Assembly (NCBI GenBank): GCA_947164825.1
Contig: CAMUYE010000012.1
Coordinates: 1-38,039, forward strand
Reading direction: 5' to 3'
Length of the DNA: 38,039 nucleotides
DNA from: an uncultured Clostridia bacterium
Lineage (GTDB): Bacteria; Bacillota; Clostridia; Oscillospirales; Oscillospiraceae
This document shows positions 4,003 through 33,006 of this stretch, piece by piece. The first letter of the stretch is position 1, and each line of letters begins with the position of its first letter. The notes beneath the pieces were generated by a model, which saw only the letters and a program-made list of their open reading frames with translations, ran no database searches and was not told where the DNA came from. A program made the translations under genes and the position numbers.

Positions 4003-4030
4003 GGCATCAGGGATCAGGCATCAGGCATCA
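4003..4030 (+). repeat. Heptad array H1, 4 units
   Basis: Units GGCATCA, GGGATCA, GGCATCA, GGCATCA, directly followed by the constant flank GACCCGCCTGTAG of palindrome B1. Confidence 0.95.
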
Positions 4031-4083
4031 GACCCGCCTGTAGCGGCGCACAGTGTGCGCCACGGCGTTCCCCGCACGGACGA
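4031..4083. repeat. Palindromic module B1
   Basis: Left flank GACCCGCCTGTAG, palindrome at 4045-4061 (arms GGCGCACA / TGTGCGCC around one base), right flank CGGCGTTCCCCGCACGGACGA. Heptads abut both ends. Confidence 0.9.
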
Positions 4084-4111
4084 GGCAACAGGCAACAGGC
4101 AACAGGCAACA
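4084..4111 (+). repeat. Heptad array H2, 4 units
   Basis: Four perfect GGCAACA units immediately right of module B1. Confidence 0.95.
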
Positions 4112-4125
4112 GGGGAGACGACAGA

Positions 4126-4171
4126 ACACGCCGTAGGGGCGGCCATTGGCCGTCCGGCGTTCCCTGCCCGG
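4126..4171. repeat. Palindromic module B2
   Basis: Flank ACACGCCGTAG, stem at 4137-4155 (arms GGGCGGCCA / TGGCCGTCC, nine pairs with one G-T wobble), then GGCGTTCCCTGCCCGG. Same frame as B1 but a different stem sequence. Confidence 0.85.
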
Positions 4172-4178
4172 ATACATA

Positions 4179-4206
4179 ATGCAAAATGCAAGATGCAAAA
4201 TGCAAA
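4179..4206 (+). repeat. Heptad array H3, 4 units of a different sequence
   Basis: Units ATGCAAA, ATGCAAG, ATGCAAA, ATGCAAA. The period and copy number match H1/H2 but the unit sequence is unrelated. It runs into module A1. Confidence 0.95.
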
Positions 4207-4220
4207 ATGGGACGGGGGGA

Positions 4221-4264
4221 CGCGGATTGCCACGGCCAGTTTGCGAACTGGCCTCGCAATGACA
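4221..4264. repeat. Hairpin module A1
   Basis: Outer pair ATTGC (4226-4230) / GCAAT (4256-4260) encloses an inner 8-bp perfect stem at 4234-4253 (GGCCAGTT / AACTGGCC, loop TGCG). The outer frame CGGATTGCCACG...CTCGCAATGACA is shared with A2. Confidence 0.85.
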
Positions 4265-4309
4265 CGCCTGTAGCGCGGGCAATCTGCCCGCCATGCCGCG
4301 TACCAACGA
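4261..4309. repeat. Palindromic module B3
   Basis: Flank GACACGCCTGTAG, stem at 4275-4291 (arms GCGGGCA / TGCCCGC around ATC), then a diverged right flank ending ACGA before heptads. Confidence 0.85.
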
Positions 4310-4337
4310 GGCAACAGGCAACAGGCATCAGGCATCA
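4310..4337 (+). repeat. Heptad array H4, 4 units
   Basis: Units GGCAACA, GGCAACA, GGCATCA, GGCATCA. Both unit variants occur in one array, joining module B3 to B4. Confidence 0.95.
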
Positions 4338-4390
4338 GACCCGCCCGTAGCGGCGCACAGTGTGCGCCACGGCGTTCCCCGCTCGGAGGA
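4338..4390. repeat. Palindromic module B4
   Basis: Near-identical to B1: flank GACCCGCCCGTAG, stem 4352-4368 (GGCGCACA / TGTGCGCC), right flank CGGCGTTCCCCGCTCGGAGGA. Confidence 0.9.
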
Positions 4391-4418
4391 GGCATCAGGC
4401 AACAGGCATCAGGCATCA
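4391..4418 (+). repeat. Heptad array H5, 4 units
   Basis: Units GGCATCA, GGCAACA, GGCATCA, GGCATCA between modules B4 and B5. Confidence 0.95.
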
Positions 4419-4470
4419 GACCCGCCTGTAGCGGCGCACAGTGTGCGCCACAGGTACCCCGCACGGACGA
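4419..4470. repeat. Palindromic module B5
   Basis: Flank GACCCGCCTGTAG, stem 4433-4449 (GGCGCACA / TGTGCGCC), right flank ACAGGTACCCCGCACGGACGA. Confidence 0.9.
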
Positions 4471-4498
4471 GGCATCAGGGATCAGGCATCAGGCATCA
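4471..4498 (+). repeat. Heptad array H6, 4 units
   Basis: Units GGCATCA, GGGATCA, GGCATCA, GGCATCA. The unit order is identical to H1. Followed by GGGGACGG and module A2. Confidence 0.95.
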
Positions 4499-4510
4499 GG
4501 GGACGGGGGA

Positions 4511-4549
4511 TGCGGATTGCCACGGGCCGTGCCGGCCCTCGCAATGACA
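4511..4549. repeat. Hairpin module A2
   Basis: Same outer frame as A1 (ATTGC 4516-4520 / GCAAT 4541-4545). The inner stem is different: GGGCCG / CGGCCC (4524-4538) with loop TGC. Both arms changed together relative to A1. Confidence 0.85.
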
Positions 4550-4564
4550 AAATCGGGGTGGATA

Positions 4565-4612
4565 CCGCCTGTAGGGACGGCACTTTGCCGTCCGCGTCCC
4601 CCGCACGGACGA
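4565..4612. repeat. Palindromic module B6
   Basis: Flank ACCGCCTGTAGG, stem at 4575-4593 (GGACGGCA / TGCCGTCC, loop CTT), right flank GCGTCCCCCGCACGGACGA, then heptads. Confidence 0.9.
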
Positions 4613-4626
4613 GGCATCAGGCATCA
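4613..4626 (+). repeat. Heptad array H7, 2 units
   Basis: Two GGCATCA units, then GACACGCCTGT, which is the left flank of a B module. Here it is interrupted by the foldable element at 4638. Confidence 0.85.
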
Positions 4627-4637
4627 GACACGCCTGT

Positions 4638-4737
4638 TTGGTGTTCCTATGACGTAACCGGATACCACGTTCGGTATGAATGCTTGAAAGAGCGGCTATA
4701 TCTGTCCAAGTGCCTTGGGTGAAAATAGAAACACCAA
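4638..4737. ncRNA. Candidate 100-nt foldable element closed by a 13-bp inverted repeat
   Basis: TTGGTGTTCCTAT (4638-4650) pairs with 4725-4737 at 12 of 13 positions. Inside lie ATACC/GGTAT (4662-4666, 4673-4677), a weak GCT/AGC (4682-4693) and CCAAG/CTTGG (4706-4718), so it can fold as a closed multi-branch structure. It occupies the place where a B-module stem would follow GACACGCCTGT. Whether it is transcribed, and from which strand, is unknown. A miniature inverted-repeat element is the main alternative. Not a tRNA. Confidence 0.4.
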
Positions 4738-4804
4738 TATTTGTGTGCATTGCAGACCTTGGAACGGGGGGCAAGAATTCAATTTTCCTGTCTCTTGCGT
4801 GCGG

Positions 4805-4859
4805 TGCCTGATGCCTGAACTCGAAGAGTCACGAAGTATGCCTGTTTCCTGATGCCTGA
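4805..4859 (-). repeat. Inverted heptads H8 (2 + 3 units)
   Basis: TGCCTGA twice (4805-4818), then after 20 nt TGCCTGT, TTCCTGA, TGCCTGA (4839-4859). These are reverse complements of the GGCATCA-class units, so the block ends in heptads of opposite orientation just upstream of tmk. Confidence 0.85.
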
Positions 4860-4898
4860 TGAATCATTATCTTTAACACAAAATGCAGAGGTATTTCA

Positions 4899-5567
4899 AT
4901 GGGAAAACTGATCGTATTGGAAGGGACCGACGGGTCCGGAAAGTCTACGCAGTTTGCGCTGCTCAAAAAACGGCTGGAGGATGAGGGGATCGTCTTTCAC
5001 ACCCTGGTGTTTCCGCGCTACAACGAGCCGTCCTCCTCCCTGATCCGCATGTATCTGAACGGGGAATTCGGCTCGGAGCCCGGGGACGTCAACGCCTACG
5101 CCGCCTCCATCTTCTATGCGGTGGACCGCTACGCTTCCTACCGGATGGACTGGAAGGACTGGTATGAAACGGGCGGCCTGATCCTGTCGGACCGCTATAC
5201 CACCTCCAACGCGGTCCATCAGGGCGCGAAAGTGCCCGACGAAGAGCGGCCCGCCTTCTTCCGCTGGCTCTGCGAGCTGGAATATGAGAAGATGGGACTG
5301 CCGAAGCCCGATCTGGTCCTCTATCTGGACATGCCCACGGAGCTGACCGAGACCCTGATGCGGAAGCGGGAATCCGACACCCACACCCACGCGGACATCC
5401 ACGAAAAGAACCTGAACTATCTCATGCACTGCCGCCGCACGGGCCTGGAGGCCGCGGAGGCCCTGGGCTGGAAACGGGTCTCCTGTGCAAAAAACGGCGT
5501 CATCCGGCCCATCGAAGAGATCCACGAAGAGCTGTATCAAACCGTCAGACGCTGTATGGAGGACTGA
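4899..5567 (+). CDS. tmk: Thymidylate kinase
   Basis: Phosphorylates dTMP to dTDP with ATP, a cytoplasmic step in dTTP supply. P-loop GTDGSGKST at residues 9-17. The DR[YH] substrate motif SDRYTTSNAVHQG is at 97-109, and LYLDMPTELTETLMRKRE matches the LxLDxP...R lid region. 222 residues, slightly longer than the usual 205-215. AGAGGT (4887-4892) lies 6 nt upstream of the ATG. First gene of a tight plus-strand run: the DJ-1-family gene begins 2 nt after its stop. The repeat block directly upstream separates it from the TagA-like gene, and I see no clear promoter between the last inverted heptad and the ribosome site. Confidence 0.93.
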   Translation: MGKLIVLEGTDGSGKSTQFALLKKRLEDEGIVFHTLVFPRYNEPSSSLIRMYLNGEFGSEPGDVNAYAASIFYAVDRYASYRMDWKDWYETGGLILSDRYTTSNAVHQGAKVPDEERPAFFRWLCELEYEKMGLPKPDLVLYLDMPTELTETLMRKRESDTHTHADIHEKNLNYLMHCRRTGLEAAEALGWKRVSCAKNGVIRPIEEIHEELYQTVRRCMED

Positions 5568-5569
5568 AT

Positions 5570-6112
5570 ATGGTTTATATCTTTTTGGCTACCGGCTTTG
5601 AGGAGATCGAAGCCCTGACCCCCTGCGACCTGCTGCGGCGGGCCGGGCTGGAAGTGGCCCTGGTGGGCGTCAACGGTATGGAGATCGTCGGGTCCCACGG
5701 GATCCGGGTGCGGGCGGACATTCCCCTCGACGCGGTCCATGTGGAACAGGCGGAAATGCTCGTTCTGCCAGGCGGCCTGCGGGGCGTCCAGTCGCTTCTG
5801 AACTGCAGGGCGGCCCTGGAACAGGTACGCCGCGGCTGGGAAACGGAGAAGTTCGTCTGCGCCATTTGCGCCGCTCCGACCGTTCTCGCGTCTCTGGGCA
5901 TCGTCGGCGATCGCGAGGCCGTCTGCTACCCAGGCAAGGAGCCGGAGATGGGGGCTGCCAGGATCGTGGACGCTCCCGTGGTGCGCAGCGGCAGGCTGAT
6001 CACCGGCCGGGCCGCAGGCGCTTCCGTGCCCTTCGCCCTGGCTTTGATCGAAGCCCTGAAGGGCAGGGAAGAGGCGGAGCGGATCGCAAAGCAGATCGTT
6101 TATGAGGGATAA
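5570..6112 (+). CDS. DJ-1/PfpI-family protein (YajL/DJ-1 subclass)
   Basis: 180 residues with the DJ-1 fold signatures: FLATGFEEIEALTPCDLLRRAG at the N-terminus (E14 matches the conserved glutamate that polarises the active cysteine), LVLPGG (65-69), and the nucleophile elbow AICAAPTVLA with C100. Family members act as glyoxalases, protein or nucleotide deglycases, or redox chaperones; the precise substrate cannot be read from sequence. It starts 2 nt after the tmk stop and ends 2 nt before ispG, so it is almost certainly co-transcribed and translationally coupled with both. Confidence 0.88.
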   Translation: MVYIFLATGFEEIEALTPCDLLRRAGLEVALVGVNGMEIVGSHGIRVRADIPLDAVHVEQAEMLVLPGGLRGVQSLLNCRAALEQVRRGWETEKFVCAICAAPTVLASLGIVGDREAVCYPGKEPEMGAARIVDAPVVRSGRLITGRAAGASVPFALALIEALKGREEAERIAKQIVYEG

Positions 6113-6114
6113 CT

Positions 6115-7152
6115 ATGACCAAACAAATCAAAGTCGGCTCCGTCCCGGTCGGCGGCGGCGCGCCGGTCTCCGTTCAGTCCATGTGCAACACGAAGACCAC
6201 CGACGTGGAGGGGAGCCTGGACCAGATCAAGGCCCTGTATACCGCCGGCTGCGAGATCGTCCGGCTGACGGTTCCCACCCTGGAGGCCGCGGAGGCCTTC
6301 GGAAAGATCGCTGATCGGAGCCCCCTGCCTCTGGTGGCGGACATCCACTTCGACTACCGCTGCGCCATCGCCGCAGCGGAGCACGGCGCGGCGAAGATCC
6401 GCATCAACCCCGGCAACATCGGCGGGGAGGACCGGGTCAAGGCCGTGGTGGACTGCTGCAAGGCCCATCACATCCCCATCCGGGTGGGGGTCAACGGCGG
6501 CAGCCTGGAAAAGGAGCTGCTGGAGAAGTACGGCCATCCGACCCCGGAAGCCCTGGTGGAGTCCGCCTTCGGCCACATCCGCCTGCTGGAAAAGTACGGC
6601 TTCTATGATACCTGCGTGTCCATGAAATCCTCCAGCGTGCCCCTGATGATGGCGGCCTACCGGCTCTTTGCCTCCCAGTCCGACTATCCGCTCCACGTGG
6701 GCGTCACCGAGACCGGTACCGAGTACATGGGCACGATCAAGTCCGCCATGGGCATCGGCGGCCTGCTCTGCATGGGCATCGGCGACACAATCCGGGTTTC
6801 CCTGACCGCCGATCCGGTCAAGGAGGTCGTTGCCGGAAAAGCCATACTCAAAGCCGCCGGTCTGCGGAAGGAGGGCGTCAACATCGTCTCCTGTCCCACC
6901 TGCGGACGGACGCAGATCGACCTGATCGGCCTGGCGAACCGGGTCGAAGAAGCCCTGAAGGACTGTAAAAAGCCCATTACCGTGGCAGTTATGGGCTGCA
7001 TCGTCAACGGCCCCGGCGAGGCCCGGGAGGCCGACGTGGGCGTGGCAGGCGGCGACGGCTGCGGCGTCCTCTTCGTCAAGGGCGAGCTGAAGGAACGGCT
7101 GCCCTACGACGAGCTCCTGCCCGCGCTGCTGCGTTACGTAGAAAATATCTGA
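6115..7152 (+). CDS. ispG: 4-hydroxy-3-methylbut-2-en-1-yl diphosphate synthase (flavodoxin)
   Basis: Penultimate enzyme of the MEP isoprenoid pathway: converts methylerythritol cyclodiphosphate to HMBPP using a [4Fe-4S] cluster. TIM-barrel N-terminal part with VQSMCNTKTTDV (20-31), VADIHFDYR (74-82) and INPGNIG (97-103). The cluster cysteines are C260 and C263 (CPTCGR) and C295 (MGCIVNGPGEA); E302 is the fourth-ligand glutamate of the family. 345 residues, the bacterial single-domain form. Its position directly upstream of polC matches the common Bacillota ispG-polC order; dxr and rseP, often next to it, are not here. Confidence 0.96.
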   Translation: MTKQIKVGSVPVGGGAPVSVQSMCNTKTTDVEGSLDQIKALYTAGCEIVRLTVPTLEAAEAFGKIADRSPLPLVADIHFDYRCAIAAAEHGAAKIRINPGNIGGEDRVKAVVDCCKAHHIPIRVGVNGGSLEKELLEKYGHPTPEALVESAFGHIRLLEKYGFYDTCVSMKSSSVPLMMAAYRLFASQSDYPLHVGVTETGTEYMGTIKSAMGIGGLLCMGIGDTIRVSLTADPVKEVVAGKAILKAAGLRKEGVNIVSCPTCGRTQIDLIGLANRVEEALKDCKKPITVAVMGCIVNGPGEAREADVGVAGGDGCGVLFVKGELKERLPYDELLPALLRYVENI

Positions 7153-7166
7153 TTACTTATGCTGAA

Positions 7167-10100
7167 ATGAATGAAAACCTTTCTCTTCTGACCCTCTTCC
7201 CCGGCCTGGAGCCGGGGGAGGAGGCGGAAGCCCTCTTACAACGGAATACGGTGGAACAAGTCGACCTCCGCGTGAAAGAGCGGGAGGTCTCCGTTGTGGT
7301 ACGCAGCGAGGTCTGGCTGCCCCTTGGGCTGCTGACGAAATTCGAACAGAAGATCAAGGAGCAATACGAGCTGAAAACCGCGTCCGTCGAGCCCCGCTAT
7401 GACCCCGCCGTGTTAAAGGATCTGGATCTTTCGGACCTGACCGGCCTGCTGACGGGCTTTTGTCCCTCCGCGCCCGCGATCCTGGCAGGCTGCCGCTGGG
7501 AGATCGAGGAGACCACGATCCACGCCCATCTGCGGGCAAACGGCGTCGACGAGCTGCGGCCGGCGCTCCGGCGGACGGAGGACTGGCTCAGCGCCTGCTT
7601 CGGCGTTCCCGTGCACCTGGAACTGCACGGCGGAAAGGAACTGAGCGCCGAGGAGCTCTTTGCCGAGACGAAGCGCATCCGCGAGCAGGCCAGGGAACAG
7701 GCCCCGGCCCCGGTGATCCAGGCGGCGCAGCCCCGTTCCAACGGCAGGAAAGAGGAGCAGAGCCCCGGCATGATCTTTGGCAAGCCCTTCTTTCAGGAGC
7801 CCATTCCCATGCGCGGGCTCAACGCGGACATGTTCAAGGTCTGCGTGGAGGGCGAGGTGTTCTCCGTCAATCACAAGGAGCTGCCCAAGGCCAAGGCCGT
7901 GGTCGTCAGCTTCTATATGACGGACCATAGCGGCTCCGTCTGCGTCAATCAGTACATGGAGGAAGCCAAGGCAAAGCCCATCCTGGACGCCATTCAGGGG
8001 CCGAACCCCAAGAAGCACAAGCCCGGCAGCTATATCCGCGTCTACGGCAAGGTCACGGTCAACCGCTACGACGGCGAGCTGGTGATCCAGCCCTATTCCA
8101 TTCGGGAGGCGCAGCGGCCCGAACGGCGGGACACGGCAAAGGAAAAGCGGGTGGAGCTGCATCTGCACACCAAAATGTCCGCCATGGACGCCCTCACCGA
8201 CACCGGCGAAGCCATTGCCCGGGCGGCGAAATGGGGCCATCGGGCCATCGCCGTCACCGACCACGGCGTGACCCATTCCTTCACCGACGCCCTGGCGAAT
8301 TCCAAAACGAAGATCGCCGGAAGCGACGAGCCCATCAAGATCCTCTACGGCTGCGAGGGCTATTACATCAACGACGTGGACACGGAGGACACGCCCGCCT
8401 CTCTGAAAACCTTCCGGACCTGCGTCTTCGGGGAGGGCGACGCGCCGCTGGACGGTGAATTCGTCGCCTTCGACGTGGAGGCCACGGGCCTGTCCCCGGA
8501 ACGGGACCGGATCATCGAGATCGGCGCGGTACGGATGCGGGACGGGGAGGTGCTGGATCGCTTCTCCACCTTCGTCGATCCGGAGCGGCTTTTGACCGAC
8601 GCCATTGTGGAGCTCACCGGGATTACCGACGAGATGCTTGCGGGCGCACCTTCGGAACGGGAGGCCATCACGGGCTTCCTGGAATTCTGCGGCGATCTGC
8701 CGCTGATCGCCCACAACGCCAGCTATGACCTGAGCATGATGAAAGCGGCCTGCCGCCGGCTGGGCCTGTCCTTTTCCCCGACCTGCGCGGATACCCTGGG
8801 CCTGGCCTGGGGCCTGCTGCCCCAGTTCACCAAGCGCAAGCTGGACGTTCTGGCGGAATACTTTGAGCTGCCGGACTTCGCCCACCATCGGGCCACCGAC
8901 GACGCCGTCACCTGCGGCCTGCTCTATCAGCGTTTTGCCGAACTGCTGCGGGCCCGGGGCCTGAGCAGGCTTCAGGAAGTCAACGAGGCCGTGGCGGGGG
9001 AAAGCGTCGGCTCCCATCCGACGCCGAAGGACGGCCGCATCCACCACATCCTGCTCTTTGCCAAGAATTCCCTGGGTCTGCGCAATCTCTACCGGCTGGT
9101 TTCCTATTCCAACCTCTATTATTTCCATACCCGCAGAGGCGGGAACGGCGCGCCGGTCATCCCCAAGTCAGAGCTGATCCGCTGGCGGGAGGGCCTGATC
9201 GTGGGCTCCGCCTGCGAGGCTGGCGAACTGTTTTCGGCCATCGTGGCGAAAAAGCCCAAGGCGGAGCTGGAACGGATCGCGTCGTTCTACGACTTCCTGG
9301 AAGTCCAGCCACTGGCCAACAATCGGTTTATGCTGCTCAACGGCATGGCGCAGTCTGAGGAGGAGCTGAAAGACTTCAACCGGACGGTGGTTCGCCTCGG
9401 CGAGACCCTGCAGAAACCGGTCTGCGCCACCGGAGACGTCCACTTCCTCGACCCGGAGGATGAGCTCTTCCGCCATATCCTCCTGGCCTCCAAGGGCTTT
9501 GACGACTGCGACCGGCCCAACCCCCTCTATTTCCGCACGACCGACGAGATGCTGGAGGAGTTCTCCTATCTCGGCGAGGAAAAGGCCTATGAGATCGTGG
9601 TGAAGAACACGAATCTGATCGCCGATCAATGCGACTGGGTGCGGCCTCTGCCCCACAATCTCTACGCGCCGAAAATCGAGAATTCCGTGGAGGATCTGAA
9701 GGCTCTGGTCTACGGGAAACTCCACCGCCTCTACGGCGAAAACCCGCCGGAGCTGATCTCCAAGCGCGTGGAGACCGAGCTCGGCGACATCATCAACTGC
9801 CACTACGACGTGATCTATATTTCCGCCCAGAAGCTGGTGCAGAACTCCCTGGAGCACGGCTATCTGGTGGGCTCCCGGGGCTCCGTGGGCTCCTCTTTGG
9901 TGGCCTATCTGGCCGGGATCACCGAGGTCAACTCCCTGCCGCCCCATTACCGCTGCCCGAATCCGGCCTGCAAGCACACCAGCTTTGAAGTCGCGGCGGG
10001 CTGCAAGTGCGGCGCGGATCTGCCGGACGCCGTATGCCCCGTCTGCGGGACGAAATACCAGAAGGACGGCTTCGCCATCCCCTTCGAGACCTTCCTGGGC

Positions 10101-11552
10101 TTCGGCGGCGACAAGGTGCCGGATATCGACCTGAACTTCTCGGGCGAGTACCAGGCCAGAGCCCACGCCTACTGCGTAGAGATGTTCGGCAAGTCCCACG
10201 TCTTCCGCGCCGGCACCATCGGCGACGTGGCGGAGAAGACCGCCTTCGGCTACGTGAAGAAGTACCTCTCCGAACGCGGTCAGACGGCCAGCCGGGCCGA
10301 GGAGACCCGCCTTGCCGAAGGCTGCGTGGGCGTCAAGCGCACCTCCGGTCAGCACCCCGGCGGTCTGGTGGTCATCCCCCAGGAGAACCAGATCTGGGAC
10401 TTCTGCCCGGTGCAGCACCCGGCGGACGACCACGAATCCGAGTGGATCACCACCCACTACGACTATCACCCCATGGAGGAAAACCTGCTAAAGCTGGACA
10501 TGCTGGGCCACGACGACCCCACCATGATCCGGATGCTCCAGGATATGACCGGGGTGGATCCCCAAACGATCCCCCTGGACGACAAGGACACCATGTCCAT
10601 CTTCACCTCCTCGAAGATCCTGGGCTATGAGAACGATCCCGTGCTCGGAGAGACAGGCGCCGTGGCCATTCCGGAGTTCGGCACCGGCTTCACCCGGGGG
10701 ATGCTGAAGGAGACCCAGCCCACCCAGTTCGACGTGCTGATCCGCCTCTCCGGCTTCTCCCACGGCACCGACGTGTGGCTGGGCAACGCCCGGGATCTGA
10801 TCCTCTCCAAGACCGCCTCCGTCTCCCAGGCTATCGGCTGCCGGGACGACATTATGAACTATCTAATCTCCTGCGGCATGCCGGACAAGCGTTCCTTCAA
10901 GATCATGGAATCCGTCCGAAAGGGGAGAGGCCTCCCCGACGGCGCGGAGGAGGAGATGAAGGCCGCGGGCGTTCCCGCCTGGTATATCGGCTCCTGCAAA
11001 AAGATCAAGTATCTTTTCCCCAAGGCCCACGCCGCGGCCTACGTGATGATGGCCTTCCGCATCGCCTGGTTCAAGGTTCACGAGCCACTGGCCTTCTACG
11101 CGGCCTACTTCTACCGCCGCAGCCAGAAAGGCGGCTTTGACGCCGCCGTGATGTGCAAGGGAAAGGAAGAATGTCTCGCCGCTCTCCAGGCCATCCAGAA
11201 TATGGAGAATCCAAGCGACAAGGACGAACAGCTCCTGACCACCCTGGAAGTGGTCTACGAGTTCTATCTGCGGGGCTTCGACTTCCTCCCCATCTCCGTC
11301 TACGAGTCCGACGCGGTGAAATTCCTGCCCCGGGACGGGAAGCTCCTGCCTCCCTTCGTGGCCATCGGGGGACTGGGCGAAAACGCCGCCCGCGACATCG
11401 CGGAAGGACGGCGGGGCAAGACCTTTATCTCCATCGAAGAGTTCTGCGCCGCCTGCCCCAAGGTGTCCCAGACCCACGTGGAAGTCCTCCGCGCCGCGGG
11501 CGCCTTCGGGGACTTGCCGATGATCAGTCAGGTGAGTATGTTTGAGATGTAA
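7167..11552 (+). CDS. polC: DNA polymerase III alpha subunit, PolC type
   Basis: Gram-positive replicative polymerase with built-in proofreading, 1461 residues (family about 1440). Visible order: N-terminal domain; OB-fold region (about 205-320); PHP domain starting [17 protein letters not shown] near 330. An inserted DnaQ-type exonuclease begins [15 protein letters not shown] near 430. A zinc-binding patch (CPNPACKH...CKCG...CPVCG) starts near 929. The palm block [16 protein letters not shown] near 985 holds catalytic aspartates, and a C-terminal helix-hairpin-helix region follows. Only 14 nt follow the ispG stop, with no convincing Shine-Dalgarno, so initiation may depend on coupling to ispG. 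Complete, no frameshift. Confidence 0.98.
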
Positions 11553-11574
11553 TATCCTGAAAGGAGTTTTGATT

Positions 11575-26822: not shown

Positions 26823-28076
26823 ATGGACGACAAACGGACTCCCATGGAGGCCGAGGTACAGGAGCTGCCGGAGCAGCCCTGCGGCTGCCCGGAGGACTAT
26901 TATGGCACCGCTGTCCGGCCCAAGCCCAGCCGCAGCTACGTGGGCCTCTGGATCTGCCTGGGGCTTGCCGTGATCGCGATCTGTACGATCAGCGTTGTGA
27001 CCGCGGTCAAACACGTTCGCCTTGAGAACGGCGAAGACGGCTGGCGCTTCGCCCTGCAAAACCAGGAGGAAACCGAAGCTTCCACGAATCCGGTGCGGAA
27101 TCTGGAGCTGCCCGGTTCGGAACAGGCCGCCGCGCCCTACGAGATCGGCTCCGACGATCTCCGCCTTCCCGTGGCCTCCGGCGGCGGGGAGCTTTTAAGC
27201 CCCACGGAGATCTATGAGTCCGTTTCCGATGCAGTGGTCTGCGTCGAGCTGAGCGGCTATTACGGCAGCGAGAGCTATACCGGCGTTGTGATCTCCTCCG
27301 ACGGCTTCATTCTCTCCGCCACCGACGGGCTCAGCGGCGCCGCTTCCATCAGCGTCAGCTTCCCGGACGGCGCCGTGCGCAGCGCGAAACGGATCGGCGA
27401 GGACTCGCTCTCCGGCGTCTGTCTTCTGAAAGTGGAGGCGGAGAAGCTGCCCTGCGTTCGCTTCAGCTCCAACGCAGAACCCAGGATCGGCCAGAGCGTC
27501 TACTGCATCGGAAATCCCTACGGCTCCCAGTTTCCCAACGTGTTCAGCGAAGGGATGCTGTCGGCCAGCCGTTCCGTGGAAGTGAACGGCAGGAGCTTCC
27601 GGCTGATGCAGACCAACGCCCTCCCCGGCGGGACGGAATACGGCTGCCCGCTGCTGGACGAGCGCGGCCTGGTGCTGGGCATCACCACGCCCATCGGGAT
27701 GCGGTTGGTTTCGGGGACGGACCCCTGCTTCGCCGTTTCCGCGGAGGATCTCGTGGGGATCGTCACCGGGTTTGAACAGGCGGCCTCGGAAAACACCGTC
27801 TGGCTCGGGTTTGAGGTCGCGGATATCCCGGAGCAGTACCGGGAGTTCTTCCGGTTCCCGGGCAGCGTTTGGATCGACAGCGTCTCCGCAGGCAGCGCCT
27901 CGGACGGGATCCTGTATCAATACGACATCATCACCGCCGTGGATGGGGTCGAGATCTCCGGCACCGACGACTTTGAACGCGTCCTTGCCGCCCACAGCGC
28001 GGGAGACCGGGTTCTGCTGACCATCTACCGAAACGGAAGGTTTTCCTATTATCTTCTGCCCATCGTCACAAGATAA
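26823..28076 (+). CDS. HtrA/DegP-like trypsin-fold protein with PDZ domain, catalytic triad absent
   Basis: 417 residues. Cytoplasmic N-terminus with a CGC pair (20-22), one membrane helix (about 39-62), linker, then a trypsin-fold region (about 126-315) and a PDZ domain (about 325-415: WLGFEVADIPE...VWIDSVSAGSASDGILYQYDIITAVDGVEISGTDDFERVL). In active HtrA proteins the triad lies in TNxHVV, TDLAxLK and NPGNSGGP. Here those positions read SATDGL (D168 for His), SGVCLLK (G198 for Asp) and PGGTEYGCP (no Ser). The fold motifs around them, such as CIGNPYG and FSEGMLS, are kept. It is probably a pseudoprotease that binds peptides. It follows the two-component genes after 86 nt, and AGGAGG precedes its ATG. 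Confidence 0.88.
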   Translation: MDDKRTPMEAEVQELPEQPCGCPEDYYGTAVRPKPSRSYVGLWICLGLAVIAICTISVVTAVKHVRLENGEDGWRFALQNQEETEASTNPVRNLELPGSEQAAAPYEIGSDDLRLPVASGGGELLSPTEIYESVSDAVVCVELSGYYGSESYTGVVISSDGFILSATDGLSGAASISVSFPDGAVRSAKRIGEDSLSGVCLLKVEAEKLPCVRFSSNAEPRIGQSVYCIGNPYGSQFPNVFSEGMLSASRSVEVNGRSFRLMQTNALPGGTEYGCPLLDERGLVLGITTPIGMRLVSGTDPCFAVSAEDLVGIVTGFEQAASENTVWLGFEVADIPEQYREFFRFPGSVWIDSVSAGSASDGILYQYDIITAVDGVEISGTDDFERVLAAHSAGDRVLLTIYRNGRFSYYLLPIVTR

Positions 28077-28081
28077 GCAAG

Positions 28082-28116
28082 GGGCGAAGCTTCCAGTCAC
28101 GAAGCTTCGCCCTTTC
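28082..28116 (+). terminator. Intrinsic terminator after the HtrA-like gene
   Basis: Perfect 12-bp stem GGGCGAAGCTTC / GAAGCTTCGCCC (28082-28093, 28101-28112) with a 7-nt loop and a short T-run (TTTCGC). Confidence 0.65.
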
Positions 28117-28147
28117 GCATAAACTGTGGCGAAAGGTGGTGCGCAAT

Positions 28148-28615
28148 ATGGATTTGCAAACCGAACGAGCCGTATGGCAGCGTGTCAAGAGCCCGGGCGG
28201 GATCACGGCGGAAGAGGCCGTACTGCCGGAACGGCTGGAAGGGCTGGTTGTCCAGGAACTGTCGGACGCCTCCGCCCTGCGTTCCGCCGCCCGGAGGATC
28301 CGCGGGCAGGGGAGCGCCGCCCTCAACCGGGCCGCCGCAAAAACCGACGCCCGCGTGCGGGAACTGACGACCATGCACTATCTGCTGACCGGGAGAAGAC
28401 TGCGGCTGAAAGCGCCGCCGCACGGCCCCGCCAAGCCCCTGCCGGAAGCCCTGCGGGAGCTGACGCTCCGTTCCCGCCAGAGCGCAAGGGCCTATGAGAG
28501 CCTGCAGGCGGAGTTCTCGGAATACGCCCGGGACTTTGCGCGCTTTGCCGCGGACGCACGGGCGCAGACCCAAATCCTGACGCAGACCCTGCAGACCCAG
28601 CTTCCGCCGAAGTGA
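28148..28615 (+). CDS. Small helical protein, possibly a degenerate ferritin-like domain
   Basis: 155 residues, no firm family. The segment DASALRSAARRIRGQGSAALNRAAAKTDARVRELTTMHYLLTGRRLRL (about 36-85) has the layout of a rubrerythrin-like helix pair, which usually reads 'A..yr.lA.r..g.....L..iA..E..H...L...yyLltG'. The metal-binding Glu and His positions are replaced by Lys/Thr and Arg. The C-terminal half (95-150) is another helical stretch rich in Arg, Ala and Gln. The ATG at 28148 is used because AAAGGTGG lies 8 nt upstream; a GTG at 28136 overlaps that ribosome site. Real gene likely, function unknown. Confidence 0.6.
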   Translation: MDLQTERAVWQRVKSPGGITAEEAVLPERLEGLVVQELSDASALRSAARRIRGQGSAALNRAAAKTDARVRELTTMHYLLTGRRLRLKAPPHGPAKPLPEALRELTLRSRQSARAYESLQAEFSEYARDFARFAADARAQTQILTQTLQTQLPPK

Positions 28616-28668
28616 TGCGGTTGTATATTGATGAAAGTGAAAAACTTTCTGAAACTGCGATTTTTTCC

Positions 28669-28697
28669 TTTTATTACGAAGGAAAGTATGATATAAT
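28669..28697 (+). promoter_or_regulatory. Candidate promoter for secA
   Basis: TATAAT (28692-28697) with a poor -35 TTTTAT (28669-28674) at 17 nt, 80 nt upstream of the secA ATG in an AT-rich leader. Confidence 0.45.
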
Positions 28698-28778
28698 AAA
28701 CAAGATTGAGCGTATTACGGATGATCGGCGACAGATGCGGCCGATGAACGGGAATCGCACAGGAAGAAAGGAAAAACG

Positions 28779-31541
28779 ATGGGACTCATTACGAAACTCT
28801 TTGGCAGCACCTCCGAACGGGAGGTCAAGAAGCTGCGGCCCTTAGTGGATAAAATCGAAGCCCTGGAGCCTGAGATGAAGGCGCTTTCCGACGACGCGCT
28901 TCGGGGCAAGACCCTTGAATTCAAACAGCGTTACGCCAAGGGCGAAAGCCTTGACGCCCTGCTGCCCGAGGCCTTTGCCGCCGTCCGGGAGGCCGCGCTG
29001 CGGGTGCTCGGTATGCGGCCTTACCGTGTCCAGCTCATCGGCGGCATCATCCTCCACCAGGGCCGGATCGCCGAAATGAAGACCGGCGAAGGCAAGACCC
29101 TGGTCGCGATCCTGCCGGCCTATCTGAACGCGCTGACCGGCGAGGGCGTCCACATCGTCACCGTAAACGACTACCTTGCCAAGCGCGACTCCGAGTGGAT
29201 GGGCAAGGTCTATCGCTTTATGGGGCTGACGGTGGGACTGATCGTGCACGATCTGAGCCCCGACGATCGCCGGAAGGCCTACGCCGCCGACATCACCTAC
29301 GGCACCAACAACGAACTGGGCTTCGACTACCTGCGGGACAATATGGCCCTGTACAAGAAGGATCAGGTGCAGCGCGGCCACAGCTTCGCCATCGTGGACG
29401 AGGTGGACTCCATTCTGATCGACGAGGCCAGAACCCCGCTGATCATCTCCGGCCAGGGCGACGAGAGCTCCAAGCTGTACGAGATGGCGGACTTCTTCGT
29501 TTCCCGGCTGAAGCGCAAGGTCTACGCCACCATGGACGACAAGCAGAGCCACGACGACGAAGACTGCGACTACTACGTGGACGAAAAGGACCGCGCCGTC
29601 CAGCTCACCGCCACCGGCATCAAGAAGGCCGAGCAGTATTTCAACGTGGAAAACCTGGCCGATCTGGAGAACTCCACGCTGTCCCACCACATCAACCAGG
29701 CCATGCGGGCCCGGGGCATTATGAAGCGGGACGTGGACTACGTGGTCAAGGACGGCCAGGTCATCATCGTGGACGAGGCCACGGGCCGTCTGATGTACGG
29801 CCGCCGCTACAACGAGGGCCTGCACCAGGCCATCGAAGCCAAGGAAGGCGTCAAGGTCGAGAGCGAGAGCAAGACCCTGGCCACCATCACCTTCCAGAAC
29901 TTCTTCCGCCTCTACAAAAAGCTCTCCGGCATGACGGGCACCGCCATGACCGAGCAGGAGGAATTCAACGGGATCTACGCCCTGGACGTGGTGGAGATCC
30001 CCACCAATAAGCCCGTGATCCGCATCGACAACCCCGACGTGGTCTACAAGACGGAGGCGGGGAAGCTCCGGGCCGTGATCCGGCAGATCGTGGAATGCCA
30101 TGAGAAGGGCCAGCCGGTCCTGGTTGGCACGATCTCCATCGAGAAATCCGAGCTGCTGTCCAAGCTTCTGAAAAGAGAAGGCATCGCCCACGCGGTGTTG
30201 AACGCCAAATTCCACGAGAAGGAAGCGGAAATCGTCGCCCAGGCCGGCAAGTTCGGCGCCGTTACCATCTCCACCAACATGGCAGGCCGCGGCACCGATA
30301 TCGTGCTGGGCGGCAACCCCGAATACATGGCCCTGGCCGATCTGCGCAAGCGTGAGGATATGACGGAAGAGCTTCTGATGGAGGCCAACGCCTATTCCGA
30401 GACCTCGGATCCCGCCATTCTGGCTGTCCGGGCTGATTTTGACGCGCTTTATCACCATTATAAGGAAATGACCGACGCCGAGGCCCAGAAGGTCCGGGCC
30501 GTGGGCGGCCTCTTCATCGTGGGCACCGAACGCCACGAGTCCCGACGCATCGACAACCAGCTCCGCGGCCGTTCCGGCCGTCAGGGCGACCCCGGCGAGA
30601 GCCGCTTCTATCTGTCCATGCAGGACGACGTCATGCGCCTGTTTGGCTCCGAGCGGGTCATGAACATGATGGAGACCCTGGGCATCGACGAGGACACCCC
30701 CATCGACGCCAAGATCCTCTCCGGGGCCATCGAAAACGCGCAAAAGACCGTGGAGAGCCGCAACTATCAGGCCCGTAAAAACGTCCTCGAATACGACGAC
30801 GTGATGAACACCCAGAGAAAGGTCATCTACGAGCAGCGTATGCAGGTGCTCAACGGCGAGGATCTGCAGAAGAACATTGAGGCCATGATGCGCTACGTGG
30901 TGGATTCCGAGGTGGAGAACAGCTTCGGCCAGTCCAATTTCGTGGAGGACGCGGCCCAGATGCGGGAGCTCATCGCCCAGTTCGAGGGCAAGTACTTCGC
31001 CCCCGGCGCCTGGATCCCCACCCGGGAGGAGCTGGACAAGCTCGAAAAGAAGGACGTCAAGGATCATCTGCTCCGGCTCATGCGGGAGACCTACGCCGCC
31101 AAGGAAGCGGAGTACGGCGCCCCCGCCATGCGCGAGGTGGAACGGGTCATTACGCTGCGGGTCGTGGACGAGTACTGGATGGACAACATCGACGCCATGA
31201 CCGATCTGCGGCAGGGCATCTCCCTGCGCTCCTACGGACAGGTGGATCCCGTGGTGGAGTACAAGCGCGAGGGCTACCAGATGTTCGAGGGCATGATCAA
31301 CGCCATCAAGGAGGAGACCGTGCGCCGGCTCTTTGCCGTCCGCATCCGCTCCGATAAGGATATGGAGCGCAAGAAGGTCGCCACCGTCACCGGAACCGGC
31401 GGCGGGGACAAGACCGTCAAGCGCCAGCCCGTGGTCAAGAAGGTCAAGGTCGGTCCCAACGACCCCTGCCCCTGCGGCTCCGGCAAGAAGTACAAGAAGT
31501 GCTGCCGGGACAAGGACCTGGGACGGACAAGTGACAATTGA
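28779..31541 (+). CDS. secA: Preprotein translocase ATPase SecA
   Basis: Motor that drives unfolded preproteins through SecYEG. 920 residues. Walker A MKTGEGKT (100-107), [13 protein letters not shown], the DEAD-like [20 protein letters not shown], helicase motifs [33 protein letters not shown] and [17 protein letters not shown], and the C-terminal zinc motif [23 protein letters not shown] lies 6 nt before the ATG. The reading frame enters a heptad repeat (first unit at 31526) just after the zinc motif, and the stop codon lies inside the second unit, so the final TSDN is repeat-encoded. Complete and functional by motif content. Confidence 0.98.
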
Positions 31542-31567
31542 CAAGGGACAAGGGACAAGTGACAAGT
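31526..31567 (+). repeat. Heptad array H9, 6 units, overlapping the end of secA
   Basis: Units GACAAGT, GACAATT, GACAAGG, GACAAGG, GACAAGT, GACAAGT. The TGA of secA (31539-31541) spans units 2 and 3. A third heptad sequence, unrelated to those near 4 kb. Confidence 0.95.
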
Positions 31568-31573
31568 ATGCTG

Positions 31574-31612
31574 CGTGTAGCGGCGCACAGTGTGCGCCAT
31601 TGCCCCGCTTGC
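31574..31612. repeat. Palindromic module B7
   Basis: Same core as B1/B4/B5, 27 kb away: TGTAGC, stem 31582-31598 (GGCGCACA / TGTGCGCC), then ATTGCCCCGC. Heptads flank it on both sides (H9, H10) with two different unit sequences. Confidence 0.9.
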
Positions 31613-31621
31613 CGATAAAAT

Positions 31622-31649
31622 GAATAATGAATAGTGAATAATGAATAAT
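31622..31649 (+). repeat. Heptad array H10, 4 units
   Basis: Units GAATAAT, GAATAGT, GAATAAT, GAATAAT: a fourth heptad sequence, AT-rich, immediately followed by the hairpin upstream of the SUFU gene. Confidence 0.95.
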
Positions 31650-31656
31650 TGTGGTG

Positions 31657-31680
31657 TTTTGCAGATTGCTATCTGCAAAA
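31657..31680. other. 10-bp perfect hairpin in the leader of the SUFU gene
   Basis: TTTTGCAGAT / ATCTGCAAAA with loop TGCT, ending 13 nt before the GGAGG of the SUFU-domain gene. It lacks a downstream T-run on the plus strand, so it is not an ordinary terminator for secA; a leader structure or operator is possible. Confidence 0.5.
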
Positions 31681-31704
31681 CGAAAACAATTTTGGAGGAA
31701 AAGC

Positions 31705-32328
31705 ATGACCCGGCATGAAATGGATAAATGGATCAAGCATTGTGATACCTATTTTAAACAAAGTGACTGCATGGTATTGCATCCCACAGTTGAAATGCCG
31801 ACCCATACTGATATTTTGATTTATGCGCCTACCGAAGAACTTCCGTTCTGGAAACTCGTGACCATGGGAGCCAGCGACTACAAAATGCCGGTGAAAAAAG
31901 CGCAGTTGGGTGATCGAAACGAATATGTTGTTTTTGTTGATCCAAAAGAAGATTTGAAGGATCACGCGTTATGCCAACGCTATGCCGCTTATCTTTGGGA
32001 AATCGCCCTCTATCCGGTCCAGACAAAGACTTACATCACGTATGGACACAGCACGTATGGACACAGCGTGGAATGGAAACCGGAAGAAGGGGAGCAAATT
32101 GTCGGCGCATTTCTGGAATTTCCTCAGATTATCCCGGATACCGGTGTGCTTCGCTGTAAACTTGGGTTCATGAAAACTGTAATCCTTCTGCAAGCCTATC
32201 TATTGAACCGGGAGGAGAATGAACGTCTGTTGGAGATCGGCCCGGAGCAATTCAGCCAATATATTTATCCGGACGGGGACGGGGACGGACATTTTTTGAA
32301 TCGTTTGAGCTTGAATACGGGTGAATGA
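31705..32328 (+). CDS. Suppressor-of-fused (SUFU) domain protein
   Basis: 207 residues from the ATG at 31705 (GGAGG 6 nt upstream). The stretch HTDILIYAPTEELPFWKLVTMGASDYKMPVKKAQLGDRNEYVVFVDP (about 33-79) follows the bacterial SUFU pattern (iDilii.pt...pf..LvT.GmS...M.......ElvI.l). Bacterial SUFU-domain proteins have been described by comparative genomics as immunity proteins in polymorphic toxin systems; no toxin gene is seen here. The gene is AT-richer than neighbours (24 G/C in 31741-31800, versus 49 in 33421-33480, counted by eye). It is bordered by repeats, which suggests later acquisition. The acetyltransferase gene begins 1 nt after its stop. Confidence 0.75.
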   Translation: MTRHEMDKWIKHCDTYFKQSDCMVLHPTVEMPTHTDILIYAPTEELPFWKLVTMGASDYKMPVKKAQLGDRNEYVVFVDPKEDLKDHALCQRYAAYLWEIALYPVQTKTYITYGHSTYGHSVEWKPEEGEQIVGAFLEFPQIIPDTGVLRCKLGFMKTVILLQAYLLNREENERLLEIGPEQFSQYIYPDGDGDGHFLNRLSLNTGE

Positions 32329-32329
32329 T

Positions 32330-32968
32330 ATGGATTACCGTGAAATCGACATGACCGCCGATCCCCGCAAGGCCCATTTTGATCACTTTCGGCACGCGCC
32401 GAATCCCCACGTCGGCCTGACGGTGGACGTAGACGTGACGGAGTTCGTACAACTCTGCAGGGAAAAGGGCTGGTCCTTCTATCCGGCCTTCATCCGGGCT
32501 GCGGCCATGGCTGCCAACGCCGTGCCGGAGCTGCGCCGCCGGATCCGGGGAGATCGTGTCGTGGAATACGAACGCTGCGATACCTCTCACATCGAGCTGC
32601 TGGAAAATGGCGCCTACTGCTACTGCACCCTGCGGCATGATCCAGCGCAAAGCTGGGACGACTATATGGCATACGCTGCTTTCCAGCGAGGGCGTGCAAA
32701 GGCCGGCGCCTCCATCGAGGAGGAGGACGACGTAGAGGGGATGTTTTTCATCTCTACGGTGCCATGGCTGCATTATCGGGCGATCTCGCAGCCCAATTTC
32801 GGTCCGGACGCCAGCAATCCCGCCATCACCTGGGGAAAGTACGAGCCGGACTACCGCGGCAGACTGATGATGCCGGTCTCTCTGCTGGTCCACCACAGCC
32901 TTGTGGACGGCCTGCAGATCGCGGCCTTCTACCGGGAGCTTGAAACGCTATTGAAGGAAATCAGGTAA
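32330..32968 (+). CDS. Chloramphenicol-acetyltransferase-fold (CatA-like) O-acetyltransferase
   Basis: 212 residues, the length of a classic CAT subunit. HFDHFRHAPNPHVGLTVDVDVTEF, SFYPAFIRAAAMAANAVPELRRRIRGDRVV, FFISTVPWLHYRAISQP and the active-site motif VHHSLVDGLQ (catalytic H189, structural D193). CAT-fold enzymes acetylate hydroxyl groups from acetyl-CoA as trimers. Whether the substrate is chloramphenicol cannot be told from sequence, and many chromosomal CatA-like proteins are not resistance genes. The ATG at 32330 follows the SUFU stop by 1 nt; an in-frame GTG at 32321 would overlap it. Base composition is again GC-rich, unlike the SUFU gene. Confidence 0.85.
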   Translation: MDYREIDMTADPRKAHFDHFRHAPNPHVGLTVDVDVTEFVQLCREKGWSFYPAFIRAAAMAANAVPELRRRIRGDRVVEYERCDTSHIELLENGAYCYCTLRHDPAQSWDDYMAYAAFQRGRAKAGASIEEEDDVEGMFFISTVPWLHYRAISQPNFGPDASNPAITWGKYEPDYRGRLMMPVSLLVHHSLVDGLQIAAFYRELETLLKEIR

Positions 32969-32971
32969 CGA

Positions 32972-33006
32972 TTACTTATTACTTATTACCTGTTACTTCT
33001 TACTTC
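32972..33006 (+). repeat. Heptad array H11, 5 units
   Basis: Units TTACTTA, TTACTTA, TTACCTG, TTACTTC, TTACTTC in the short gap between the CatA-like gene and pgeF: a fifth heptad sequence, ending 8 nt before the pgeF ribosome site. Confidence 0.93.

Follow-up and report, generated by a model that had tools for sequence, protein, structure and literature searches.

Results

Period-7 arrays in the window

The window, the whole 38,039-nucleotide stretch analysed here, belongs to an Oscillospiraceae genome that probably comes from the ruminant gut. Between wecG and tmk it holds a gap crowded with arrays of 7-bp units and hairpins, and further arrays lie at the end of secA and beyond (Table 1). 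In 13 of 14 relatives, the BLAST matches bordering the wecG-tmk gap end about 16-70 nt apart, and in G010 about 235 nt apart. All the period-7 arrays listed in a preliminary description of this DNA were present, each starting within 3 bases of where it had been placed. Its remark that they mostly have four units also held: most comprise 4.3-4.6 units, the exceptions being those at 4612 (2.3), 4805 (2), 31525 (six) and 32971 (five). The degenerate array at 4838..4861 shows 84-95% complementarity, along 19-24 nt, with the + arrays at 4002, 4309, 4390, 4470 and 4612, and the GACAAGK array is missing at the corresponding place in the relatives G003 and G004. The units follow one another head to tail, without unique spacers, so the arrays do not qualify as CRISPR arrays. 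None of 4227 known RNA families reached its gathering score in the window, and a search of viral contigs using the WecG protein found no relative.

Table 1. Arrays and hairpins in the window
Feature	Position	Strand	Remarks
wecG-tmk gap, 913 bp	3986..4898	.	contains nine arrays and at least 7 hairpins
Array AGGCATC/AGGGATC	4002..4031	+	30 nt; purine-rich strand +
GTAG + hairpin (REP-like)	4040..4062	+	read from sequence
Array [AGGCAAC]4AGG	4083..4113	+	31 nt
GTAG + hairpin (REP-like)	4133..4155	+	read from sequence
Array [AATGCAA]4AATG, AAGATGC variant in unit 3	4178..4209	+	exact 32-mer dispersed in the genus
Second hairpin type GATTGCCACG...CGCAATGACA	4225..4264	+	15 bp past the ATGCAAA array
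GTAG + hairpin (REP-like)	4270..4292	+	read from sequence
Array AGGCAAC/AGGCATC	4309..4338	+	30 nt
GTAG + hairpin (REP-like)	4347..4369	+	read from sequence
Array AGGCATC/AGGCAAC	4390..4419	+	30 nt
GTAG + hairpin (REP-like)	4428..4449	+	read from sequence
Array AGGCATC/AGGGATC	4470..4501	+	32 nt
GTAG + hairpin (REP-like)	4571..4593	+	read from sequence
Short array AGGCATC	4612..4627	+	2.3 units
Two AGGCATC units, inverse orientation	4805..4818	-	
Degenerate AGGCATC-word array, inverse orientation	4838..4861	-	
Array GACAAGK, six units	31525..31567	+	first units contain the secA stop codon
GTAG + hairpin (REP-like)	31577..31599	+	between two arrays
Array [AATGAAT]4AAT, AGTGAAT variant	31619..31649	+	identical in G003 and G004
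Array TTACTTM, five units	32971..33006	-	between a CAT-domain gene and a laccase-domain gene

Excess of period 7 in the source genome

We scanned 432,824 bases of the source genome (G000), namely 20 stretches and the window. Exact runs, for which at least three copies were required at periods of 5 and up, numbered 41 at period 7 and, between 2 and 30, 0-5 at each of the remaining periods. DNA from a second-order Markov shuffle contained none at period 7 and no more than 3 at any other, which rules out a chance origin of the arrays. A mismatch-tolerant scan of the same 433 kb returned 89 arrays at period 7, as opposed to 8 at period 6, 2 at 8, 4 at 9 and 11 at 12, and apart from 14, a multiple of 7, no other period exceeded 11; the 41 at period 14 were largely the same arrays as those at 7. 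Eight of the 20 stretches (C37 among these) had been placed at known GGCAWCA hits, while the other 12 begin at base 1 of their contigs, with C1, C2, C5 and C11 already known to bear hits; these 12 (240 kb) gave 38 period-7 arrays, compared with 5 of period 6 and 2 of period 8. Across the 2.07-Mb assembly, three consecutive GGCAWCA units were hit 130 times, overlaps counted, and the reversed control 0 times. As the preliminary description had anticipated, the period distribution of the genome peaks sharply at 7, and the units there are of many sequences.

A home-made gene caller placed 82 of the 89 arrays outside genes (a cruder one had put 12 of the 41 exact arrays in coding DNA). Array lengths cluster near 24, 31 and 38 nt, in steps of 7, and 44 of the 89 measure 29-33 nt, across several unit families. 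The main units are AGGCAWC, which makes up 44 of the 89 arrays, AATGCAA, AAGTAAK, GACAAGK and AATGAAT. Because the intergenic DNA outside the arrays carries no period-7 signal (lag-7 match of 0.274, with lags 2-30 at 0.255-0.290, on the cruder gene calls), the 7-bp register resides in the arrays.

Changes of unit within one register

The unit sequences had been described as unrelated, which was not borne out. Inside a single array (locus L057, 8614-8685), the unit changes in phase from GACAAGT to AATAAGT and then to AAGAAGT. Likewise, the 80 unit types in the arrays sampled across the genus form one network linked by single substitutions, although decayed units within arrays inflate this connectivity and random unit sets also yield a big component (mean 47, maximum 68 of 80). 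The register is kept while the word changes, and therefore one 7-bp register carries many words here.

Dispersal of one whole array

The exact 32-mer [AATGCAA]4AATG occurs 35 times in 5 of the 23 genomes of the genus. When 20 bp on each side were clustered ungapped at 60%, the 30 copies with loci formed 16 groups by left flank and 20 by right flank (ungapped clustering may split related flanks), so that the same two ends and the same internal variant mostly stand in unlike flanks. BLAST from the lepA-hemW locus retrieved over 100 additional copies, and by eye the majority share both ends exactly or to within a few bases; the examination of fixed ends concerned this single word, AATGCAA.

At the lepA-hemW locus, where Pfam recognized lepA and a HemN-type gene, a 0.9-kb gene flanked by a + and a - array lies between the two genes in G000 and G006, and lepA nearly abuts hemW (gap below 20 nt) in G003, G010, G013, G019 and G020. 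A transposase between or near the inverted arrays was rejected, as the intervening gene matched no Pfam family, and of G004 proteins the two tested were TruB and DHH. The right-hand array consists of four units in each of G000, G004 and G006, as does the left-hand array in G000 and G006; both differ between genomes by point changes alone. The AATGAAT array of the window is identical in G000, G003 and G004. Unit number was therefore constant at three orthologous arrays (two over three species, one over two). The dispersed exact 32-mer with the same ends and this constancy make the near-constant four copies look inherited. Identical arrays in unlike flanks and a conserved copy number also speak against the earlier view that common descent was hard to reconcile with the arrays. 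Against dispersal, no target-site duplication or clean single-array empty site was seen. The lepA-hemW junction is too short to judge a duplication.

Polarity and pairing

The purine-rich strand of the arrays leads away from the closest gene edge and towards the gap in 37 cases against 10 in G000, 38 against 3 in the relatives and 65 against 20 in the listed cyanobacterial loci. It was weak among 35 listed loci of other phyla (23:12, p 0.09, p values here being uncorrected for phylogeny and clustering). The polarity is present in all four gene arrangements, with 35:6 between convergent genes, in pooled counts that include the listed loci, six from Clostridia (4:2) among them. The sets from relatives used for polarity, pairs and the unit network comprise 60 stretches in all, including 15 from G004 and 5 from G003 picked for similarity to one repeat-rich G000 stretch.

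Copies of ATGCAAA at most 1 kb apart (start to start) were arranged +- 12 times, or 10 when one orthologous pair is counted once, and never -+, an order that terminal inverted repeats of an IS or MITE could give, yet 12 pairs lay on the same strand. As a reading of all arrays, terminal inverted repeats were rejected for GGCAWCA, which sits mostly in direct higher-order repeats (26 of 27 neighbouring pairs direct, not inverted). Adjacent arrays were ordered +- 7 times and -+ 0 times in G000, and again 7 and 0 in the relatives; in the listed cyanobacterial loci the counts were 27 and 10, so -+ neighbours occur too. Four selected foldbacks had folding z-scores of -3.8 to -7.1. In the relatives, the two arrays of a +- pair have a common word no more often than expected by chance (0 of 7 pairs at distance 0-1).

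Hairpins beside the arrays

In their general features, the GTAG hairpins between the arrays resemble REPs. Array density tracks GTAG-hairpin density (Spearman 0.84 over 22 genomes, uncorrected for phylogeny), a likeness to REP/REPIN systems; in contrast to these, single arrays have, by reading, no GTAG hairpin of their own, the hairpins standing only in their neighbourhood. A RAYT/Y1 transposase as the driver was discarded, the Y1 domain being found in 12 of 23 genomes, not at all in the array-rich G007 and as five weak matches in G018. Neither Y1 transposase nor reverse transcriptase domains correlated with array density across the 23 genomes.

Occurrence in relatives and other phyla

Arrays turn over among closely related species: of 7 aligned gaps that bear arrays in G000, 5 contain none in the relative. 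The sampled DNA of 11 of the 22 relatives contained no arrays, and whole-genome searches gave a few copies in some of these 11. In 335 kb sampled from 20 genomes of other genera in the family and order, we counted 7 arrays, every one of them in G028. Further afield, we compared 80 loci listed among at least 108 stretches, with several loci per genome in some cases. The 39 cyanobacterial ones held 120 period-7 arrays of 47 unit types, leaving out the AACAGGC and AGGCATC arrays that had brought the loci in, together with 18 arrays at period 8 and no more than 8 at any other period from 4 to 13. The 35 loci of other phyla had 23 arrays at period 7 and at most 5 at any other.

Discussion

The explanation that we favour, which stands about an even chance of being correct, is that the arrays are dispersed intergenic repeats that spread ready-made, oriented by gene edges, and were later reworded in register. 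The spreading piece, about 31 bp long, would typically comprise four heptads and a further 2-4 nt, and would settle at gene edges with its purine-rich strand mostly pointing from the gene into the gap. Arrays would often form convergent pairs, which may fold back or flank an inserted stretch, in gaps that also collect REP-type hairpins. After arrival, point mutation, in-phase duplication of units and copying between arrays could alter the word and retain the 7-bp register. We infer that the spread occurred by transposition-like or ectopic copying and that units other than AATGCAA behaved in the same way.

Replication slippage that amplifies any local 7-mer, with the polymerase imposing a 7-nt ruler, would account for the many unit types, for lengths in steps of 7 and for the period-7 peak in the listed loci of other phyla. 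We consider it rather unlikely, since many loci share a small number of units (AGGCAWC in 44 of the 89 arrays), one array appears with the same ends and internal variant in unlike flanks, and unit number is constant at the three orthologous arrays. Slippage through lost mismatch repair was rejected as a cause, mutS1 being found in 22 of 23 genomes and the lone miss being an assembly 56% complete. Decidedly unlikely, in our judgement, are selected binding sites or mRNA elements acting at gene edges, for example for a DNA-binding regulator or ribosomal protein S1. Polarity in all four gene arrangements agrees with them, as do the labels of putative regulatory elements given to Geobacter arrays (PMC2700814) and of putative translational sites given to TAACTGA repeats (PMC4679880) in the available text of these papers, but the words are many, the arrays turn over in 5 of 7 aligned gaps, and samples of half the relatives (11 of 22) are devoid of them, with a few copies in some by whole-genome search.

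The polarity and pairing could also reflect selection against purine-rich, Shine-Dalgarno-like words before starts, acting on randomly oriented insertions. The sense strand near starts is indeed mostly pyrimidine-rich (15:5 in G000, 11:1 in relatives, 24:11 in the listed cyanobacterial loci). This explanation is nevertheless very unlikely, as polarity is equally strong at stops (22:5, 27:2 and 41:9, respectively) and between convergent genes (35:6), where the argument does not apply. Extremely unlikely is a reverse transcriptase that copies a short RNA template, as telomerase does: constant period and narrow array length would suit it, but RVT_1, present in 13 of 23 genomes, does not match array density. 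The domain was not found in G018, the densest sample (25 arrays per 100 kb in 40 kb sampled; assembly 92% complete), and G002, with two RVT_1, shows no array in 13 kb. Moreover, units drift within one array.

The preliminary idea of a process copying any 7-mer it finds stood in part: the sharp peak and the many words remain, the unrelatedness of the units and the exclusion of common descent do not. A genus with dense and sparse relatives, a dispersed array with fixed ends, in-phase word changes and polarity constrain any mechanism: it has to preserve a 7-bp register, accept many words, transfer entire arrays and set their direction by the gene edge. Taken together, these demands exceed what plain slippage does. 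A broader proposal, which we hold quite unlikely, is that several phyla share a word-indifferent process placing four-heptad cassettes at gene edges, purine-rich strand gap-inward and usually in convergent pairs, in which the 7-bp register and not the word is inherited, and an enzyme with a 7-nt step writes and moves it.

Comparison with known repeats

The heptanucleotide repeats of cyanobacteria, heterocystous ones included, are known as STRR, and Drosophila foldback transposons have inverted arms built from short tandem repeats. The arrays share such arms with the latter, from which they differ in that no transposase or target duplication was seen with them. With their period-7 excess and their mostly intergenic, dispersed positions, they belong with bacterial heptanucleotide SSRs (the Mrazek class and STRR). 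In many bacteria such repeats form the commonest class of long SSR or an over-represented one (Mrazek 2007, via PMC4679880 and PMC4692102), and a 7-nt polymerase contact has been hypothesized for the excess (Mrazek 2007, as told in PMC4679880). STRs of 6-9 bp are enriched in a subset of prokaryotes, 7 not being singled out in the available text of PMC12699852.

A close parallel is GGGAATC of Xanthomonas (available text of PMC4692102), with a 7-bp unit, a majority of four units, 89-93% intergenic location, and inverted pairs that converge (70 and 75 cases). It lies nearer the ORF on its own 5' side (28 nt versus 160 nt on average), in agreement with the polarity in G000, and its length and sequence vary among related species. 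G000 likewise has arrays of about four units (44 of 89 at 29-33 nt) and convergent pairs. In contrast to the one G-rich, G-quadruplex-capable unit of Xanthomonas (PMC4692102), it has several families, mostly without GGG and linked in phase; by inspection its main units do not fit GGGANTN, AGGGATC coming nearest, and in this genus one array is dispersed with fixed ends. In Geobacter metallireducens, 49 copies of GGGACCG form four tandem heptads dispersed over the genome, as here, some other repeat classes are paired on opposite strands and one class has five heptads; the units differ, and the repeats are putative regulatory elements, some inside genes (PMC2700814, available text). Cyanobacterial heptads, including GGGGAYT in Nostoc (PMC4692102) and TAACTGA, shared with Beggiatoaceae (PMC4679880), resemble those of G000 in having several words per genome in short, mostly intergenic arrays, with indels between two Cyanothece strains that are mostly multiples of 7 and with the same polarity in the 39 listed loci. 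They belong to another phylum, and few inverted pairs are reported for Nostoc GGGGAYT in the available accounts.

Altogether, we read these arrays as an unusually rich variant of the known bacterial heptad repeats, one that spreads in the form of foldback-like cassettes where REP-type hairpins also lie. For other bacteria, published accounts already describe an excess of heptanucleotides, arrays of four units and pairs that converge, as far as the available texts go, and titles and abstract openings, from few subscription journals, contained no description of heptad arrays for Oscillospiraceae or Clostridia. The polarity found in the genus recurs in the listed cyanobacterial loci and is consistent with the available Xanthomonas data. 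In this genus, one register visibly carries many words, one array is dispersed with fixed ends, and close relatives are dense or sparse in arrays.

Heptanucleotide arrays in the genome and across taxa

All of the arrays listed in the preliminary description were present in the window, as determined with Tandem Repeats Finder and by direct reading, and the sharp peak at 7 bp that it had forecast was also seen. In 432,824 bases of the window's genome (G000; 20 stretches plus the window), exact runs, requiring at least 3 copies for periods of 5 or more, numbered 41 at period 7, with 0-5 for each of the remaining periods between 2 and 30; after second-order Markov shuffling, period 7 had none and no other period more than 3. 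A mismatch-tolerant scan of the same bases found 89 arrays at period 7, 8 at period 6, 2 at 8, 4 at 9 and 11 at 12, and the 41 at period 14 were largely identical with period-7 arrays. The twelve of these stretches that started at contig base 1 gave 38 at period 7, 5 at 6 and 2 at 8. Across all families, 44 of the 89 arrays measured 29-33 nt, with smaller groups at 22-26 nt (10), 36-40 nt (7) and 43-47 nt (5).

The assembly that contains the window (2.07 Mb, 133 contigs, 82% complete) probably derives from a member of the Oscillospiraceae living in a ruminant gut; its closest named records among the matches listed were goat omasum contigs of Oscillospiraceae bacterium RGIG2672 (86-91% identity over 1.0-2.3-kb pieces). 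Three copies of GGCAWCA were present in 12 of 98 genomes, namely G000 and 11 of the 22 other members of its genus, and in 0 of the 75 genomes searched outside it. Period-7 density in 22 relatives (6-40-kb samples) ranged from 0 to 25 arrays per 100 kb and was highest in G018 (25) and G007 (20), G000 having 16-21. The small samples (6-40 kb) of 11 of these relatives held no array, and several relatives with array-empty samples yielded some copies in whole-genome searches. In G018, CCCCTAA/CCCTGAT-type arrays (stretches L180 and L194) were reminiscent of eukaryotic telomere repeats, and the gap after secA was made up largely of drifting heptads. Other genera gave 7 period-7 arrays in 335 kb from 20 genomes, every one in G028, of the same family, where stretch L277 held seven in 9.4 kb, with AAATATC and AATAATG as units.

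Scanning named genomes for three copies of GGCAWCA returned, among the matches listed, Okeania, Calothrix, Nostoc, Phycisphaerales, Gemmatimonadaceae, Treponema and others. After AACAGGC and AGGCATC arrays were taken out, 39 cyanobacterial loci among these matches (303 kb) contained 120 period-7 arrays of 47 unit types; period 8 was a second, smaller class (18 arrays), every other period from 4 to 13 reaching at most 8. The 35 loci from other phyla among the matches listed (264 kb) showed 23 at period 7 and at most 5 at other periods. Period 7 is thus favoured repeatedly across taxa, and descent from a single array is unlikely to be a full account.

Unit words and common ends

The units had been described as unrelated, a view that was not borne out: words changed in phase within arrays, commonly so (see table), and all 80 unit types in the genus samples could be linked by single substitutions. 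Where the secA stop codon lies, G000 carried GACAAGK, and the relatives G007 and G021 carried GACAATT, GACAGGT and GACAAGC words (by reading). The 80 types formed one component with 172 edges, whereas in random unit sets of the same composition the largest component averaged 47 types, never exceeding 68, and edges never exceeded 104; decayed copies within arrays inflate this network, so that drift is shown to be able to join words, not to have done so.

The exact 32-mer [AATGCAA]4AATG, with unit 3 allowed as AAAATGC or AAGATGC, had 35 copies in 5 of 23 genus genomes and its reversed control had 0. Clustering the flanks of the 30 copies with loci gave 16 groups on the left and 20 on the right; start and end positions agreed in nearly all of these copies, exceptions including one locus (L267) with an extra left unit and some copies with one extra A. 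BLAST from the lepA-hemW locus (hemW being our name for a HemN-type gene, by Pfam) gave more than 100 additional copies, most with ends at those positions or a few bases away (by eye). Left neighbours were often CGG or CGA and right neighbours AGGG or GGACGGGG (by reading, no statistics), and arrays of different words preceded one kind of GGACGGGGG stretch. Two recurrent arrays, AATGCAAAATGCAAGATGC... and AATGAATAATGAATAGTGAAT..., each carried an A-to-G variant in unit 3, near the middle of 31-32 bp.

Coordinates of arrays and associated features
Feature	Sequence	Positions	Remarks
Putative long ORF without Pfam match	window	104-3076	gene caller favours opposite strand, 2-3025
Array-rich wecG-tmk gap	window	3986-4898	
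GGACGGGGG stretches	window	after 4209; after 4500	
secA stop codon	window	31539-31541	TGA of GACAAGK array
SUFU-domain gene	window	31705-32328	between secA and CAT-domain gene
Array with word change	L057	8614-8685	GACAAGT, AATAAGT, AAGAAGT in phase
Array with word change	L057	15527	AGGGATC, AGGGATT, AAGGATT in phase
Dispersed ~95-bp repeat	L042	9409-9505	at least 20 or so matches in G004, among matches listed
Dispersed ~130-bp repeat, MITE-like	L042	10846-10978	many G003/G004 matches; inverse AATGAAT-type heptads on both outer sides
Orthologous gap	L211; L042	1784-1886; 3778-3880	outer arms GATTTGTCG/CGACAAATC conserved; inverted REP-type hairpin pair in G000, inverted GGCAATA-type heptad pair in G004

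Polarity and pairing

For the array closest to each gene edge, within 200 bp and using a home-made hexamer gene caller, the purine-rich strand pointed away from the gene and into the gap in 37/47 cases in G000 (p 1e-4), 38/41 in 60 stretches of relatives (p 1e-8), 65/85 in cyanobacterial loci (p 1e-6) and 23/35 in the 35 loci of other phyla (p 0.09), the last two among the matches listed. Array-free windows lacked the polarity (in:out) in the same gaps of G000 (stops 150:136, starts 128:263), in relatives (266:223, 264:441) and in the cyanobacterial loci listed (225:161, 177:240). With all sets pooled, it amounted to 74:19 after stops and 41:17 before starts of in-line genes, 18:5 between divergent and 35:6 between convergent genes.

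Neighbouring arrays within one gap were convergent (+-, by the strand of the purine-rich array strand) 7 times and -+ 0 times in G000, 7 and 0 in relatives, and 27 and 10 in cyanobacterial loci among the matches listed. ATGCAAA copies at most 1 kb apart were +- in 12 cases (three representing one orthologous pair), -+ in 0 and on the same strand in 12. Four close pairs picked by eye folded much more stably than shuffled sequences (z -3.8 to -7.1). At lepA-hemW in G000 and the relative G006, + and - arrays bracketed a 0.9-kb gene that had no Pfam match; G004 had this gene and the right-hand array, with the left-hand one as a BLAST match only, and lepA and hemW were less than 20 nt apart in G003, G010, G013, G019 and G020. 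Between secA and the laccase-domain gene, the window carried a GACAAGK array (+), an AATGAAT array, the SUFU-domain gene, a CAT-domain gene and a TTACTTM array (-). In the relatives' stretches, a protein search found the SUFU-domain gene in G004 only, and a G003 contig end shows the gene start.

REP-type hairpins preceded by GTAG shared the array gaps: the G000 sample had 102 of them, where each of five other tetramers gave 9-21. The density of GTAG hairpins tracked array density in 22 genomes (Spearman 0.84, kinship uncorrected). In G004, G003, G006, G010 and G002 the secA stop was the TAG of such a GTAG (L181, L170, L167, L166 and L168; by reading).

Turnover between relatives

The AATGAAT array after secA had the same sequence, including its variant, in G000, G003 and G004. 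At lepA-hemW, G000 and G006 had four units in both arrays and G004 had four in the right-hand one, with only point differences between the genomes. The wecG-tmk gap was 913 bp long in G000; of the 14 relatives compared, 13 had some 16-70 nt there and G010 had some 235. Among 20 gaps aligned between G000 and G003/G004, seven held arrays in G000 (two of these overlap each other) and the relative had none in five of the seven. None of the gaps compared between relatives showed a clean empty site for one array by itself.

Interpretation

We put at about even the chance that the arrays are dispersed repeats of about 31 bp which would be copied as wholes to gene edges in a preferred orientation and often set down as foldback-like pairs, the word drifting while the 7-bp register stays conserved. 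The near-constant four units appear to be inherited along with each copy. Among the domains checked in 23 genomes, no copying enzyme was found: Y1 transposase (12/23) and RVT_1 (13/23) did not match array density; mutS1 was found in 22/23. A slippage mechanism with a 7-nt ruler (Mrazek's proposal, which the preliminary description implies) may initiate arrays and account for gains or losses of units, but leaves the shared ends and shared variants unexplained, as well as the orientation and the unchanged unit number. The arrays could also be selected sites.

An excess of heptanucleotide repeats, arrays of four units, convergent pairing and turnover among related species are already in print (PMC4679880, PMC4692102 and PMC2700814), and the portions of the literature searched gave no account of heptad arrays in Clostridia. 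As far as our searches show, three aspects are new: in-phase word change across several families within one genome, dispersal of one heptad array with fixed ends, and polarity tested over many words and in two phyla. The polarity agrees with what PMC4692102 reports for a single Xanthomonas heptad unit, whose repeats almost always lie closer to the ORF on their 5' side; convergent pairs of them number 70 in one species and 75 in another.
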